A stretch of DNA of 64,000 bases from Achromobacter pestifer (GTDB lineage: Bacteria > Pseudomonadota > Gammaproteobacteria > Burkholderiales > Burkholderiaceae_B), in assembly GCF_013267355.1 (NCBI RefSeq), contig NZ_CP053985.1, positions 5,208,001 through 5,272,000 of the forward strand, in the 5' to 3' direction. Positions within the stretch are counted from its first letter, which is position 1. Each line of letters begins with the position of its first letter. The notes beneath the pieces are model-generated. The model saw only the letters and a program-made list of their open reading frames with translations, searched no databases and had not been told where the DNA came from. A program made the translations under genes and the position numbers. Shown in pieces: positions 39,503 through 45,051 of this stretch.

Positions 39503-40873
39503 TCAGTACACGTCGCGGCGGTAGCGGCCGTCGCGCTGCAGGGCCTGCAGGCGCGCGGCGCCCAGGATGTCCTGCAGCGCGGCGTCCACGCCGCTGGCCA
39601 TGCCTTGCAGGCTGCCGCAGACGTAGATGGCGGCGCCCGCGTCGGCCCAGGCGCGCACGGCGTCGGCCTTGTCGCGCAGATGGTGCTGCACATAGCGGCG
39701 CTCGGCCTGGTCGCGCGAGAACACCGCATCCACGCGTTCCAGCGTGCCGTCATCGCGCCATGCGTCGATATCTTCCCGGCAGAACCAGTCGTGTGCTGCG
39801 TTGCGTTCGCCGAAGACCAGCCAGTTGCGCCGCTGGCCAGCGGCGCGGCGCGCCTTGATCAGCGCGCGCAGGCCGGCCAGGCCGGTGCCGTTGCCCACCA
39901 GCAGCAGCGGGCGGTCGTCGGCTGGCGCGTGGAAATTGCGGTTGACTCGCACACGCAGGTCTATCGCGGCGCCGGGCTGGGCGATGTGGGTCAGCCAACC
40001 GCTGCCCAAGCCCAGCGCGCCATCGGCATCGCGCATCTGGCGCACCAGCAACTGTATCGAGCCGTCTTCGGGCAGCGATGCAATCGAGTATTCGCGGTGC
40101 GGCAGCAAGGGGCCGCCGGCTTCGCGCCGGGGGCCGATTTCGGCGATATCGCCGGCCTGCCATTCGCGCGCGCCATCGGCAGGCGGCGTCAACGTCAGCA
40201 GATAGCAAGGGCCGCCCTGGCTTTGAGGGTTGAGCTGCTCGCGCGCAGCCAGGCGCCAGGATTCGTATGCCGGCGTCTGCCAGTCGGGCAGGTCGCTGCG
40301 CCCGGCCAGAAGGCCGAGGTGGTGCTGCCAATGCCGCAAGGCTGCCGGGTCGCCGTTGTCGACCTCGACCAGGTCGAACAGTGGCGCCGCGCCCTGCGCA
40401 TGCAGCCAGTCGTCCAGGCGATGGCCAAAGCCGCAGAACTGGGCGTACTCGCTGTCGCCCAGCGCCAGCACTGCGTAATGCGCGCCGGCCAGCGCCGGGA
40501 CTGCCTGCTGCATCTGTTCGGCGAAGGCCGCGGCGGCATCGGGCGGATCGCCTTCGCCATAGGTGCTGACCACGAACAGCATGCGGCGATACGCCGTCAG
40601 ACGCTTGGCGTCCAACTGTTCCAGCGCCGCCACGCGCACGGCGAGGCCGCCCGCGCGCAGGGATTCGGCGGTCTGCGCCGCCAGCGATTCGGCATAGCCG
40701 GTCTGCGTGGCGTAGGCGACCAGCAAGGTGTCTTCGGGGACAGGCGCTTGCAGGGCTTGCAGGGCCAGCGCCTGCTGCGCCTCATGGCGTTTGGCGCGGC
40801 GCCGGGCCCAGGCGCACAGCAGCAGCCAGGCTCCCACCACGCATGCTGCCGCGATCAACCGGGTTGCTGGCAT
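39503..40873 (-). CDS. membrane-anchored flavodoxin/NADPH-flavin oxidoreductase (CysJ-like)
   Basis: A 456-residue diflavin reductase. An N-terminal membrane span (about 5-22, followed by R-R-R-A-K-R) anchors it. The FMN flavodoxin domain has T-Q-T-G-Y at 56-60 and S-T-Y-G-E-G-D-P at 103-110; the FAD and NADPH domains show R-E-Y-S-I-A-S and G-N-G-T-G-L-A-G. It resembles sulfite reductase flavoprotein but no sulfite reductase is nearby. As the last gene of the PepSY/DUF2271/DUF4198/ApbE operon it most likely supplies cytoplasmic NADPH electrons to the membrane partner. Confidence 0.85.
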   Translation of the reverse strand: MPATRLIAAACVVGAWLLLCAWARRRAKRHEAQQALALQALQAPVPEDTLLVAYATQTGYAESLAAQTAESLRAGGLAVRVAALEQLDAKRLTAYRRMLFVVSTYGEGDPPDAAAAFAEQMQQAVPALAGAHYAVLALGDSEYAQFCGFGHRLDDWLHAQGAAPLFDLVEVDNGDPAALRHWQHHLGLLAGRSDLPDWQTPAYESWRLAAREQLNPQSQGGPCYLLTLTPPADGAREWQAGDIAEIGPRREAGGPLLPHREYSIASLPEDGSIQLLVRQMRDADGALGLGSGWLTHIAQPGAAIDLRVRVNRNFHAPADDRPLLLVGNGTGLAGLRALIKARRAAGQRRNWLVFGERNAAHDWFCREDIDAWRDDGTLERVDAVFSRDQAERRYVQHHLRDKADAVRAWADAGAAIYVCGSLQGMASGVDAALQDILGAARLQALQRDGRYRRDVY

Positions 40874-40877
40874 GTCG

Positions 40878-41903
40878 TCAGGCTATGGCGGCCAGCGCCT
40901 GGAATTCGGGCGTGGCGACGACGCGCCAGGCGTCGCGCTCGCGCAGGATGAACAAGGCCGCGAGGCCGTGGCGGCGCGCGTAGGCCAGGCCCTCGTCTTC
41001 GCCCAGCACGGTCAGGGCGGTGGCGAGCGCGTCGGCCTGCATGCATCCCGGATGCAGCACGGTGACCGAAGCCAGGCTGTTGCGCACCGGCAGGCCGGTG
41101 CGCGGATCGATGGTGTGGGCGTAGCGCTCGTCGCCGCTGCCCGCGTGGCGGCGGTAATCGCCCGAGGTGGCGATGCTGCGGTCGCACAGCGGCAGGGCCA
41201 GCGCATGGTCGTCGCTGGCGTCCGGCACTTCGATGGCCACGCGCCAGGGCTGGCCGTCGGGCCGCCTGCCGCGCGCGCACAGCTCGCCGCCCACTTCGAC
41301 CAGGTATTGGCTGATGCCCAGGGCATCGAGCGCCATTGCGGCGCGGTCCACGCCGTAGCCCTTGGCGATGGAGGAAAGATCCAGATAGGCGCCGCCCGGC
41401 TGCAGCGCGGCGCGGCGCTCGGCATCGAGCTGCACGCGGCGCCAGCCGCAGCGGGCGCGCGCGGCCTCGATGGCGGCGGGAGAGGGCGGTTCAAATGCGC
41501 GCTGATGCGGTCCGAACCCCCAGGCGTTCACCAGCGGCCCGACCGTGGGATCGTAAGCGCCGCCGCTGTCCTCGGCCAGCGCCAGCGCGTGGCTCAGCAC
41601 GTGGAAGAACTCCGCCGGTAGATTCTGCCAGCCGGATGCGGCCTGGTTGTAGCGCGTGATGTCGGAGTCGGGTTCCCAGGTGCTCATCTGGGCGACCACC
41701 TCGTCCAGCGCGGTCTGGATGGCATGGCGCGCCGCGGCTTCCGTGCGCCCAGCCGGCAGCGCCATGCGCGCCGACCAGGTGGTGCCCATGGTGGCGCCGG
41801 CCAGCGCCGCGGGCGCCGCCGGCATGGCCGGCATGGCGCCGTAGGCGACGCGCACGGCCGCGGCCGGCGCGCCGCGCTGGGCGTAGGAGGGAGAGCTGGC
41901 CAT
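40878..41903 (-). CDS. apbE: FAD:protein FMN transferase (ApbE family)
   Basis: A 341-residue flavin transferase that attaches FMN through a phosphoester to serine or threonine of target proteins. Signatures are M-G-T-T-W-S near residue 40, V-G-P-L-V-N-A-W-G-F-G, L-D-L-S-S-I-A-K-G-Y-G-V-D, V-E-V-G-G-E-L and the metal-binding late A-D-A-L-A-T-A-L. The N-terminus is alanine/proline-rich without a convincing signal peptide or lipobox, which is odd for an enzyme that modifies exported proteins. Its neighbour DUF2271 protein carries the likely target motif. The start at 41903 is the best of several; a different start could add an export signal. Confidence 0.9.
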   Translation of the reverse strand: MASSPSYAQRGAPAAAVRVAYGAMPAMPAAPAALAGATMGTTWSARMALPAGRTEAAARHAIQTALDEVVAQMSTWEPDSDITRYNQAASGWQNLPAEFFHVLSHALALAEDSGGAYDPTVGPLVNAWGFGPHQRAFEPPSPAAIEAARARCGWRRVQLDAERRAALQPGGAYLDLSSIAKGYGVDRAAMALDALGISQYLVEVGGELCARGRRPDGQPWRVAIEVPDASDDHALALPLCDRSIATSGDYRRHAGSGDERYAHTIDPRTGLPVRNSLASVTVLHPGCMQADALATALTVLGEDEGLAYARRHGLAALFILRERDAWRVVATPEFQALAAIA

Positions 41904-41917
41904 GCGCCCGCGACGGC

Positions 41918-42718
41918 TTAGGGTTGCAGCACTTCGACCGTGCCCGCGTAGGACAGGCGGCGCTTCTTGGCTTGCGGCACGCTGACCTTGGCATCTTCCA
42001 TGCCGGCTTCGATCCAGTACAGGCCGGGCTGCGGCCACTTCACGGAGAACTTGCCGTCCTTGTCCGTCTTCAGCTGGATTTCGCCGACCTTGTCGCGATA
42101 GCGGCTGCCGCCGGGCACCACGTTGACTTCCAGGTCGGCGGCGGGCTTGCCGTCCAGCAGCATCTGGAAGGTGGCGGGCTCGTCCGTGAACAGGTCGTTC
42201 GGGTGGGTCACGGGGGCCAGTTCCAGGCCGCGGCCGACCGGCTTGACAGCCGAAGGCTTGCCCGCGGTCACGAAGGTTTCGACGCGGCCCAGGCTTTGCG
42301 AGACTTCCAGCTCATCGGCCTTGGCCGGCACGGCCTGCGCCAGGCCTTCGGGCTTGCCGAAGTAGCGCTTGTTCTTGCCGTCTTCCTTCCAGCGCGCGAA
42401 CACGCCGTCGTTGACCACGGCCACGCGGTAGGTGCCGGCCTGTTTCAGTTGCAGGTCGAAGGTGCTGCGCAGCTTGCCCTTATTGATGTTTTCGGCTTCG
42501 GCGGCGCTGCCGTCCGGCGCGGTCACGGCCAGGCCGTCCAGGCGCAGCGGGGCGTGGTTGAAATAGAACTTGTCGTTGCCGACGGCGGCGTCGACGGTGA
42601 CCCAGCTGTCGGTGCCCGACAGCACCGTCGAGGACGGCACCATCCAGACGTCATGCGCCTGGGAGGCGAAGGGCAGGCACAGCGCCAGGGCGGCGGCCAG
42701 TTTGGCGGCGGATTTCAT
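41918..42718 (-). CDS. DUF4198 domain exported protein
   Basis: A 266-residue protein with a clear signal peptide (about 1-21, A-S-Q-A|H). The mature start H-D-V-W-M-V-P matches DUF4198 (also seen in nickel/cobalt and iron-linked periplasmic proteins). A C-terminal segment, G-L-Y-W-I-E-A-G, closes a beta-sandwich-like domain. No enzymatic function is established; such proteins occur in flavinylation-linked gene clusters. It sits between the ApbE and DUF2271 genes on the same strand. Confidence 0.85.
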   Translation of the reverse strand: MKSAAKLAAALALCLPFASQAHDVWMVPSSTVLSGTDSWVTVDAAVGNDKFYFNHAPLRLDGLAVTAPDGSAAEAENINKGKLRSTFDLQLKQAGTYRVAVVNDGVFARWKEDGKNKRYFGKPEGLAQAVPAKADELEVSQSLGRVETFVTAGKPSAVKPVGRGLELAPVTHPNDLFTDEPATFQMLLDGKPAADLEVNVVPGGSRYRDKVGEIQLKTDKDGKFSVKWPQPGLYWIEAGMEDAKVSVPQAKKRRLSYAGTVEVLQP

Positions 42719-42738
42719 CGTTGCGCTCCTTGGGGATC

Positions 42739-43254
42739 TCAGGGTTTCAGGTCGAGCGCGATGGCGCCCAGTTCGTGTTCGCCGCGCGCCGTCAACTGCT
42801 CGGCCTTTTGCGGCGGCCATTGGAAGGGGATGCGCAGCAGCTCGCGGCCGCCGACTTCGCGCGCGGCTTCGATCACCACGGCGTACTGGCCGGGCTTGAG
42901 GCCCGACAGCGGCTTGCTGGCCGCATCAAAGCTCAGCGCGTGCTTGCCCACGGGCTTGGTGGCGCCGCTGACGCCGTCCACCGGAAATTGCTGGTTGCGG
43001 CCGCTGCGGCGCCACCATTGGCGCATGTCCTTGAGCCATTCCGTGCCCTCGTTGTTCTTCTTGGCCACGTCGTACCAGACGGCCAGGTCGGTCGCCACGC
43101 TCTGGTCGGGGTTCTCGATCCAGATCGCCACGTAGGGGCGGTGGTACTCCGCCACGTCCAGGCGCGGGATCTCGATGGACAGGCCGATGTCGGCCGCTTG
43201 GGCCGTTCGGGCGATCAGGCCGGCCAGCAGGGCCGACAGCAACAGCTTGCGCAT
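42739..43254 (-). CDS. DUF2271 exported protein with flavinylation motif
   Basis: A 171-residue periplasmic protein with a signal peptide (about 1-20, T-A-Q-A|A). It contains D93-G-V-S96-G-A-T99, which fits the D-x2-(S/T)-G-A-(S/T) consensus that ApbE modifies with FMN, so T99 is the predicted flavin site. DUF2271 proteins have been linked in published surveys to flavin-based electron transfer outside the cytoplasm. The gene lies between the PepSY and DUF4198 genes. Confidence 0.85.
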   Translation of the reverse strand: MRKLLLSALLAGLIARTAQAADIGLSIEIPRLDVAEYHRPYVAIWIENPDQSVATDLAVWYDVAKKNNEGTEWLKDMRQWWRRSGRNQQFPVDGVSGATKPVGKHALSFDAASKPLSGLKPGQYAVVIEAAREVGGRELLRIPFQWPPQKAEQLTARGEHELGAIALDLKP

Positions 43255-43282
43255 GGAAATCTCCAGGGGCGGATCGTTGGAA

Positions 43283-43909
43283 TCAATGAATGAAAAGCAG
43301 GGCCAGCACCACCGGGATCACCACGCCCAGACCGACCATGGGCCAGGTCGCGCTGCGGTTGCCGGCATGCATCTTGAGCAGCACCAGTCCGGTCAGCGAA
43401 AAGACCAGACAGGCGACGGCGAAGATGTCCAGGAACCAGCTCCAGGCCAGGCCGGTATTGCGGCCCTTGTGCAGGTCGTTCAGGTACGAGATCCAGCCGC
43501 GGTCGGTGCGTTCGTATGCCACGTCGCCGCTGGCCAGGTCGATGGACAGCCAGGCGTCGCCGCCGGCGCGCGGCAGCGACAGATAGACCTCGTCGGCCGA
43601 CCACTCGGCCGGCTTGCCGGCGGCGGACGCGTCCAGCGTCTGGTCCAACCACTGCGCGACGGGTGCGGGCAGCGGCGCTTTTTTTTGTGCGGGCGGGGGC
43701 GACAGTCGCTGCAGCACGGCAGCGGGCATGCGGGCTTCGCGGCTGGTCACCACGGCCCGGGCCTCGATGTGCGAGGCGTTGTTCAAGGTCAGGCCCGTCA
43801 CCGCGAACAGCAGCATGCCCAACAGGCACAGCGCCGAGCTGATCCAATGCCATTGGTGCAGCGTCTTGAGCCAATAGGCCCGGCGGCGAGGGGTGGGTTG
43901 ACTGTCCAT
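43283..43909 (-). CDS. PepSY-associated transmembrane protein
   Basis: A 208-residue inner-membrane protein of the PepSY_TM type. Spans are seen at about 22-44 (W-H-W-I-S-S-A-L-C-L-L), 150-175 and 185-206, with a periplasmic loop between the first two. Histidines in T-L-H-Q-W-H-W, N-D-L-H-K-G and L-K-M-H-A could bind heme, as in related membrane reductases. It is the first gene of a five-gene operon (PepSY, DUF2271, DUF4198, ApbE, flavoprotein reductase) and its promoter region contains a Fur box. Confidence 0.85.
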   Translation of the reverse strand: MDSQPTPRRRAYWLKTLHQWHWISSALCLLGMLLFAVTGLTLNNASHIEARAVVTSREARMPAAVLQRLSPPPAQKKAPLPAPVAQWLDQTLDASAAGKPAEWSADEVYLSLPRAGGDAWLSIDLASGDVAYERTDRGWISYLNDLHKGRNTGLAWSWFLDIFAVACLVFSLTGLVLLKMHAGNRSATWPMVGLGVVIPVVLALLFIH

Positions 43910-43942
43910 GGGGTATAGGGTGAAAGCCCGCGGATTCTAACA

Positions 43943-43961
43943 TTTAATGAGAATGACTCTT
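43943..43961. promoter_or_regulatory. Fur box
   Basis: TTTAATGAGAATGACTCTT matches the 19-base E. coli Fur consensus at 12 positions, including the AATGA-AAT core, and lies 34 bases upstream of the PepSY gene. It predicts iron-repressed expression of the whole flavinylation operon. Confidence 0.7.
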
Positions 43962-44097: not shown

Positions 44098-44652
44098 ATG
44101 CTTGAACAGCAAGTCGTGGATCAGATCGGTCGTCATTGGGGTTGGGTGGCCTTGCGCGGCGTCGTCGCCATCCTGTTCGGCCTCATGGCCTTGCTCATGC
44201 CCGCCATCACCTTGTCCGCCCTGGTGCTGGTGTGGGGCGCGTTCGCGCTGGTGGACGGCGTGCTGGCCCTGGTTGCCGGCGTGCGCATCCGCGACCAAGG
44301 CAAGCCCTTGTGGGCGCTCATCATCGTGGGCCTGCTGGGTATCGCGGCCGGCATCGTCACTTTCCTCTATCCCGGCCTGACCGCGCTGGTCCTGCTCTAC
44401 ATCATCGCGATCTGGGCGCTGGTGTCCGGCGTGTTCCAGGTCGTGGCCGCGATCCGTTTCCGCAAGGACATCCGCAATGAATGGCTGCTGGGCCTGTCGG
44501 GCTTGGTTTCCATCCTGTTCGGCGGCATGCTGATCATGCAGCCCGGCGCGGGCGCGCTGGCGCTGGTCTGGGTCATCGGCGCCTACGCCGTGTTTTTCGG
44601 CATACTGCTGCTGGTCTTTTCCTTCCGGCTCAAACAGCACAAGGCGTCCTGA
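44098..44652 (+). CDS. HdeD/DUF308 family membrane protein
   Basis: A 184-residue polytopic protein with six hydrophobic segments and the HdeD repeat G-V-V-A-I-L-F-G-L-M-A-L-L-M-P. In E. coli HdeD supports acid resistance at high cell density; whether this one does is not known. GGAGG lies seven bases before the ATG at 44098. It is 6 bases upstream of crcB, which is probably coexpressed. Confidence 0.87.
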   Translation: MLEQQVVDQIGRHWGWVALRGVVAILFGLMALLMPAITLSALVLVWGAFALVDGVLALVAGVRIRDQGKPLWALIIVGLLGIAAGIVTFLYPGLTALVLLYIIAIWALVSGVFQVVAAIRFRKDIRNEWLLGLSGLVSILFGGMLIMQPGAGALALVWVIGAYAVFFGILLLVFSFRLKQHKAS

Positions 44653-44658
44653 AGTCCG

Positions 44659-45051
44659 ATGTCCGCATACCAAACCCTGATTCCCCTGAATTTCCTGGCC
44701 GTGGGCGTGGGCGCCATGTTCGGCGCCTGGGTCCGCTGGCTGGTCAGCCTGTGGCTGAACGTGGAGTCCTGGCCCTGGGGAACCTTCGCGGTGAACCTGG
44801 CCGGCGGCTATCTGGTGGGCCTGGCGCTGGCGCTGGTGGCCGGGCATCCCGAATGGCCGGCCTGGGTGCGGCTGAGTGCGATCACGGGTTTCATGGGGGG
44901 CTTGACCACGTTCTCGACCTTTTCGGCCGAGACCGTGGCGATGCTGGAGCGCGGCGCCTACGCCAGCGCGCTGGGCTATGCGGGTTTCAGCCTGGTCGGG
45001 TCGCTCTTGCTGACGGTGGCCGGCCTGGCCACCGCCAACCTGCTGCGTTAA
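44659..45051 (+). CDS. crcB: fluoride exporter CrcB/Fluc
   Basis: A 130-residue membrane protein with four spans. The diagnostic pieces are P-W-G-T-F-A-V-N-L-A-G-G-Y in the second span and G-F-M-G-G-L-T-T-F-S-T-F-S-A-E in the third, which lines the fluoride pore. It works as an antiparallel dimer that exports F-. No fluoride riboswitch is present upstream, since the HdeD-like gene ends 6 bases before it. Confidence 0.93.
   Translation: MSAYQTLIPLNFLAVGVGAMFGAWVRWLVSLWLNVESWPWGTFAVNLAGGYLVGLALALVAGHPEWPAWVRLSAITGFMGGLTTFSTFSAETVAMLERGAYASALGYAGFSLVGSLLLTVAGLATANLLR

Follow-up and report, generated by a model that had tools for sequence, protein, structure and literature searches.

The survey of Meheust 2021 (PMC8238504), in its passages on the subject, defines "PepSY-like" flavinylation systems and links them to iron reduction and to the regulator Fur, whose control of such systems it reports for Shewanella and Caulobacter. 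Systems of this kind combine a PF16357 or PF03929 protein, a DUF2271 protein with an [S/T]GA[S/T] motif, a DUF4198 protein and the flavin mononucleotide (FMN) transferase ApbE, and are proposed to reduce iron. In Caulobacter, the genes CC3059-3063 (CCNA_03155-03159), for a PepSY-family protein, DUF2271, DUF4198, ApbE and a sulfite-reductase-type flavoprotein, are described as one Fur-regulated operon. Here we analyse a five-gene operon of the same families from Achromobacter pestifer, which belongs to another bacterial class. Its genes span 39503-43909 of the window, a 64,000-nucleotide (nt) stretch of contig NZ_CP053985.1 (positions 5,208,001 to 5,272,000). The operon is ordinary for its kind and in essence already described; it differs from the PepSY-like systems of the survey in that its ApbE has no recognisable signal peptide and its reductase is a separate diflavin protein, predicted to be membrane-anchored. 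We consider it likely that the operon encodes an iron-repressed ferric reductase of this known kind, with FMN attached in the cytosol and DUF4198 handing on metal.

All five open reading frames are present on the minus strand and match Pfam families above cut-off. In transcription order they encode a PepSY_TM_like_2 membrane protein (43283..43909, 208 amino acids (aa); PF16357, E 4.9e-88), a DUF2271 protein (42739..43254, 171 aa; PF10029, E 3.2e-51), a DUF4198 protein (41918..42718, 266 aa; PF10670, E 1.1e-60), ApbE (40878..41903, 341 aa; PF02424, E 9.9e-90) and a diflavin reductase (39503..40873, 456 aa; flavodoxin PF00258, E 5.6e-30, and PF00175, E 3.1e-10). The gaps between them are only 28, 20, 14 and 4 nt, making a single transcript likely. 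DUF2271 carries a Sec-type signal peptide, judged by its form and matching the near-identical leader of a related locus (L073), and its flavinylation motif D-G-V-S-G-A-T occupies D93-T99 (codons 42958-42978, minus strand; T99 codon 42958-42960). DUF4198 also has a signal peptide. An earlier note on this DNA had named these families, the motif with T99 and the export of DUF2271 and DUF4198, without calling ApbE exported, and in all of this it agrees with our analysis; its reading as a whole is largely right and largely known.

The threonine column of the motif is 98% conserved across 99 sequences. An Amantichitinum DUF2271 protein is reported to be flavinylated by its own ApbE, which a Thr-to-Ala mutation abolishes (PMC8238504). 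The Achromobacter ApbE, aligned to 5mgy, keeps Ser247, His263 and Asp291, the catalytic triad as described in a review (PMC12052999). The locus thus has what marks the PepSY-like class, a DUF2271 protein exported by the form of its signal peptide and bearing [S/T]GA[S/T], and an ApbE with catalytic residues in the cluster. An extracytosolic location of ApbE, usual for the enzyme and outside the survey's stated class definition, is not indicated here. Among relatives the final threonine of the motif is near-invariant, and looser forms of the [S/T]GA[S/T] core (SGPT, TGPT, SSAT, SSPT) are frequent where an ApbE gene is adjacent.

The conservation of the operon was examined in named genomes, using the best 80 of 477 DUF2271 relatives, a set in which near relatives therefore dominate. 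The closest loci are from Achromobacter, with DUF2271 identity of up to 99%, and the set extends to Bordetella, Pigmentiphaga, Lysobacter, Cupriavidus and others. The complete five-gene set was found at 63 of the 80 loci, and the order PepSY-DUF2271-DUF4198-ApbE-reductase on one strand is kept in 63 of 63, which excludes a chance neighbourhood. DUF4198 is encoded at all 80. The reductase was undetected at 10 loci (for example L123, L128, L138, L139, L149 and L150), two Azoarcus loci (L131 and L137) have no ApbE gene, and five (L083, L085, L104, L119 and L133), each close to a contig end, are missing an end gene. PepSY-DUF2271-DUF4198-reductase operons without an adjacent ApbE also occur at L192, L195, L201, L207, L213 and L227; some of these ApbE-less operons keep the motif unchanged (DGVSGAT, L192), and others carry a changed version (DGVTSAT at L131, DGLSAAT at L201).

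A Fur-like box lies between the operon and the divergent DUF308 gene upstream (43943..43961, strand unspecified), matching 12 of 19 positions of the E. coli Fur consensus. A score of at least 12 is reached at 15 strand-positions in the 64 kb window, so the box is not significant taken alone. What stands of the Fur box proposed in the earlier note is a 12/19 match here and, at most of the Achromobacter and Bordetella loci examined, a recurring Fur-like box ahead of the PepSY gene. In 19 of 78 related loci, those with enough sequence, a match of 13 or more fell within the 250 nt that precede the PepSY helix motif; among 250-nt windows taken across these loci, 40 of 3704 held one. This comparison ignores kinship, although loci within a genus are related. 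By genus-level group, the median Fur score was reached by at most 5% of the group's own windows in 13 of 29, including Achromobacter (background fraction 0.042), Bordetella (0.028), Pigmentiphaga and Cupriavidus. The remaining 16 groups fail at this level, and Lysobacter, metagenome-assembled genomes of Caulobacteraceae and Roseomonas are among them; these failures count against iron control by Fur. The genome encodes three Fur-family proteins.

Evidence for an iron role, which the earlier note had drawn from the Fur box, also comes from Caulobacter. There the five-gene ortholog is reported to be induced by iron limitation and derepressed in a fur mutant, with a validated Fur site (PMC3751524), and transposon insertions in it reduce fitness in ethylenediaminetetraacetic acid (EDTA; PMC11870441), which is reported to reduce intracellular iron in that organism. 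The link from such domains to extracytosolic flavinylation, for which the note had appealed to published surveys, is borne out by PMC8238504, which names this cluster type together with iron reduction and Fur.

The electron path was reconstructed from the two membrane proteins. Read from the sequence, the reductase begins with a hydrophobic segment and a basic stretch, followed by the flavodoxin and flavin adenine dinucleotide (FAD)/NAD(P) domains, a layout by which it is predicted to be anchored in the membrane through its N-terminus. Among solved structures, CysJ and cytochrome P450 reductases (CPR) are closest to it in sequence, and it fails the NCBIfam cysJ model (238.5 bits against a cut-off of 668.15), so that its family assignment is to a CysJ/CPR-like diflavin reductase other than CysJ. 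The predicted model of the PepSY protein has three long helices, the first two separated by a domain (mean predicted local distance difference test (pLDDT) score 86). Five of its histidines are conserved among 104 sequences: His147 (100%), His21 (98%), His208 (94%), His181 (82%) and His18 (75%). Topology would place His18, His21 and His181 on the cytosolic side and His147 and His208 on the periplasmic side, making them candidate ligands of two b hemes. With sides assigned in this way, the protein has the two histidines per membrane face of a FoxB-type diheme PepSY reductase, and in FoxB histidines of this kind are reported to hold two hemes (PMC11334425, PMC13038864). The structural match between the model and FoxB is weak, so that the two hemes are putative.

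The electrons might alternatively serve repair or respiration, going to an acceptor in the periplasm and not to iron, with iron control reflecting the cost of heme. The survey ties other flavinylated systems to respiration (PMC8238504), and MsrQ is described as having the PepSY heme core in common. Against this, the Caulobacter ortholog shows both an EDTA fitness defect and derepression linked to iron, and DUF4198, a putative metal carrier, accompanies the operon at every named-genome locus. We regard this alternative as very unlikely.

DUF4198 is probably a periplasmic metal carrier, judging by its predicted fold and conserved histidines. Its signal peptide ends in S-Q-A before His22, at a predicted cleavage site, and its only histidines, at positions 22, 55 and 172, are 98%, 85% and 95% conserved among 104 sequences. 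The predicted model (mean pLDDT 86.4) was matched by Foldseek to Zcp structures, copper-, zinc- and cobalt-bound ones among them (E 1.4e-13 to 5.0e-13), for which no paper was found in the open-access literature, and to an Ideonella DUF4198 protein with nickel (PDB 9GCB; E 7.3e-09, template modelling (TM) scores 0.57/0.68). The latter is reported to bind nickel through its N-terminal histidine, which is conserved and stands immediately after the signal peptide, and through His18 (PMC12537917). The Achromobacter protein resembles it in fold and in the conserved histidine right after the predicted signal peptide; it differs in that His22, His55 and His172 are the conserved residues and in its place within a Fur-linked redox operon. 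It is this Fur link that points to iron as its metal.

The metals of these solved relatives, nickel in 9GCB and copper, zinc or cobalt in the titles of the Zcp entries, would also fit a system in which the same electron path serves the reduction or handling of copper, nickel or zinc and Fur is only a co-regulator. A Bordetella PepSY_TM protein is, moreover, reported to support the function of a heme-copper oxidoreductase (PMC13038864). We nevertheless think such a system improbable, if slightly less so than the repair or respiratory acceptor: a Fur-like box precedes the operon, and the Caulobacter ortholog answers to iron and Fur, its mutants responding to EDTA, which lowers intracellular iron there.

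A ferric reductase in the periplasm raises the matter of ferrous import. A profile search for FeoB gave no FeoB_C match in this genome, whereas the Caulobacter control genome gave one. Instead, an FTR1 permease gene is flanked by genes for a P19-type Fe2+ protein, a cupredoxin and a Fer4_5 protein, which together we take to be an FtrABCD set. This FtrABCD-like system is most likely the Fe(II) importer served. The FtrABCD importer is reported to use only Fe2+ (PMC11966278); a ferric reductase in the periplasm would provide its substrate.

For the iron-repressed ferric reductase that we favour, the following sequence of events can be proposed. Fur with Fe(II) would repress the operon. Under iron shortage the anchored diflavin reductase would take electrons from cytosolic nicotinamide adenine dinucleotide phosphate (NADPH), move them from FAD to FMN and deliver them to the PepSY protein, in which histidines would hold two stacked b hemes spanning the membrane. 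From the hemes the electrons would reach the T99-bound FMN of DUF2271 in the periplasm, and DUF2271 would in turn reduce ferric complexes. DUF4198 may catch the metal so released, using its N-terminal histidine, and hand it on, most likely to the FtrABCD-like Fe(II) importer. ApbE would have added this FMN in the cytosol, either before DUF2271 enters the Sec pathway or while it is being exported.

The last of these steps departs from the described systems. The ApbE of the operon, like its closest relatives, has no recognisable signal peptide. To find signals, each ApbE frame was extended back to the stop ahead of it and every possible start was scored, with a home-made score and inspection by eye, in 137 operon rows from three overlapping samples, among which at least 12 ApbE leader windows duplicate another row. 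Judged by score and eye, ApbE has no recognisable signal at 128 of the 137 loci with PepSY, DUF2271 and ApbE. The nine that bear one comprise 2 of 32 in the family sample (L050, L051), 5 of 73 in named genomes (L121, L130, L134, L135, L145) and 2 of 32 in the phylum sample (L205 and the ApbE-DUF2271 fusion L241). The cut-off used at first was laxer for DUF2271 (1.29) than for ApbE (2.0); at a common cut-off of 1.6, by score alone, 17 of 137 operon ApbEs pass compared with 133 of 137 DUF2271 proteins. Thirteen ApbE rows scored 1.4-2.0, which overlaps the range of real signals; on inspection by eye they were rejected and counted as signal-less. The L074 enzyme scored 2.16 on a stretch that is an alanine run inside a linker. 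One genome (G099; L276/L312) has an uncharged hydrophobic stretch upstream of the usual start, which is ambiguous and was counted as signal-less.

As a control, the same reading was made of 29 ApbEs from family genomes that lie away from DUF2271. Twenty-five have a twin-arginine or Sec signal (one recognised by eye only), three are signal-less (L304, L309, L310) and one (L305) is cut by a contig end. One control, L286, gave no score, yet a twin-arginine signal is visible in it. Signal-less enzymes thus account for 128 of 137 operon loci and 3 of 28 readable controls; the missing signal is strongly linked to PepSY-DUF2271 operons and is not exclusive to them. The three signal-less controls come from genomes without DUF2271 above cut-off (G014, G034 and G086), and signal-less ApbEs are known outside such operons. 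The cytosolic ApbE of Klebsiella, which acts on fumarate reductase, is likewise without a signal peptide (PMC12052999), but its target is cytosolic, whereas the apparent target here is exported.

Since ApbE has no recognisable signal peptide, the attachment of FMN to DUF2271 is probably cytosolic and either precedes Sec export or accompanies it. ApbE is reported to modify a seven-residue tag (PMC12052999), and DUF2271 and ApbE, both without signal peptides, yielded flavinylated protein in E. coli (PMC8238504); cytosolic modification is therefore chemically possible. Alternatively, ApbE could reach the periplasm by an unrecognised export route, or another, exported ApbE could modify DUF2271. 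Most characterised ApbEs are described as membrane-anchored periplasmic lipoproteins whose FAD supply is still obscure (PMC12052999), and 9 of the 137 operon enzymes do carry a signal. The A. pestifer genome, besides its one DUF2271 protein, has two ApbEs and one FMN_bind protein; the second ApbE is nos-type with a twin-arginine signal (locus L002, G000:C2:4846051-4849872), and the FMN_bind protein at C2:4855760 is its likely partner.

The family sample bears on both forms of this alternative. Among its 121 genomes, DUF2271 was above cut-off in 45 and ApbE in 60, the latter in 45 of 45 genomes with DUF2271 and 15 of 76 without (in the phylum sample, 65 of 398 genomes have DUF2271 above cut-off). 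ApbE is a single gene in 29 of the 45, where it adjoins DUF2271 in every case; it is signal-less in 27 of these (G099 being ambiguous) and has a signal in two, from one genus (G013 and G080). An exported ApbE is thus not at hand in the 27, so that DUF2271 there is modified by a signal-less ApbE or stays unmodified, and the nos-type enzyme was dropped as a necessary modifier because 29 of the 45 DUF2271 relatives have no second ApbE gene. The very short ApbE leader in operons where the PepSY protein and reductase are fused (for example L068) also speaks against periplasmic modification, which we consider unlikely overall, though less so than the repair, respiratory or other-metal readings.

In a tree of 77 ApbEs, built by a quick method (LG+G4) from a thinned set with 12 controls and half of its signal-less rows, the operon signal label needs five changes, and both forms occur within Lysobacter. 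In the Lysobacter group the enzymes of L121, L130, L134 and L145 bear a signal and their relatives at L120, L127 and L136 do not. Generalised beyond this genome, the proposal is that in most PepSY-DUF2271 operons ApbE stays in the cytosol and Sec exports a DUF2271 that already bears its covalent FMN, so that no FAD export is needed, while ApbE acts outside in part of the Lysobacter group, in Luteibacter and in one genus of the family. We judge this broader statement about equally likely to hold or to fail. The passages retrieved from the open-access literature contain no statement of modify-then-export flavinylation.

Several variants were seen alongside. An R-V-L-I-P-like stretch precedes the ApbE domain in 47 of the 128 signal-less operon enzymes (for example L132, L148, L152 and L190) and, as far as can be judged, is not a signal peptide. 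A weaker DUF2271 signal hydrophobicity, seen in Lysobacter with signal-less ApbE, was set aside as a pattern when it failed in Achromobacter. At L033 (G116) the ApbE match falls in two pieces about 200 nt apart within one open frame of 550 residues. A second arrangement, at 14 loci (L065-L072 and L242-L247), has a long diflavin reductase frame, a short DUF2271 and an ApbE that has a short leader and no signal peptide; in L068, the only frame read for fusion, the reductase is fused to PepSY (737 aa). At L237, L238, L240 and L241, DUF2271 and ApbE form one reading frame with a signal peptide in front.

In the 7.18 Mb genome, the operon is flanked downstream by genes on the opposite strand for a TctC-type binding protein and an amidohydrolase, and upstream by a divergent pair (44098-45051) for a DUF308 (HdeD-like) protein and CrcB. 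By family, none of these four genes is concerned with iron.

The operon adds an Achromobacter case to a described class and makes the iron role of that class likelier. Its unexpected part is the missing ApbE signal peptide, set against the picture in the review (PMC12052999) of a typically periplasmic, anchored enzyme. If flavinylation precedes export, the question of FAD supply would vanish for systems of this class, and Sec would have to let an FMN-bearing chain through. Species with and without an ApbE signal, even within Lysobacter, offer a natural experiment. Two points merit follow-up, in which compartment ApbE works and what DUF4198 does with metal; if DUF4198 is an iron-catching partner, this would give a function to a Caulobacter protein that is reported to be strongly iron-induced and of unknown role.

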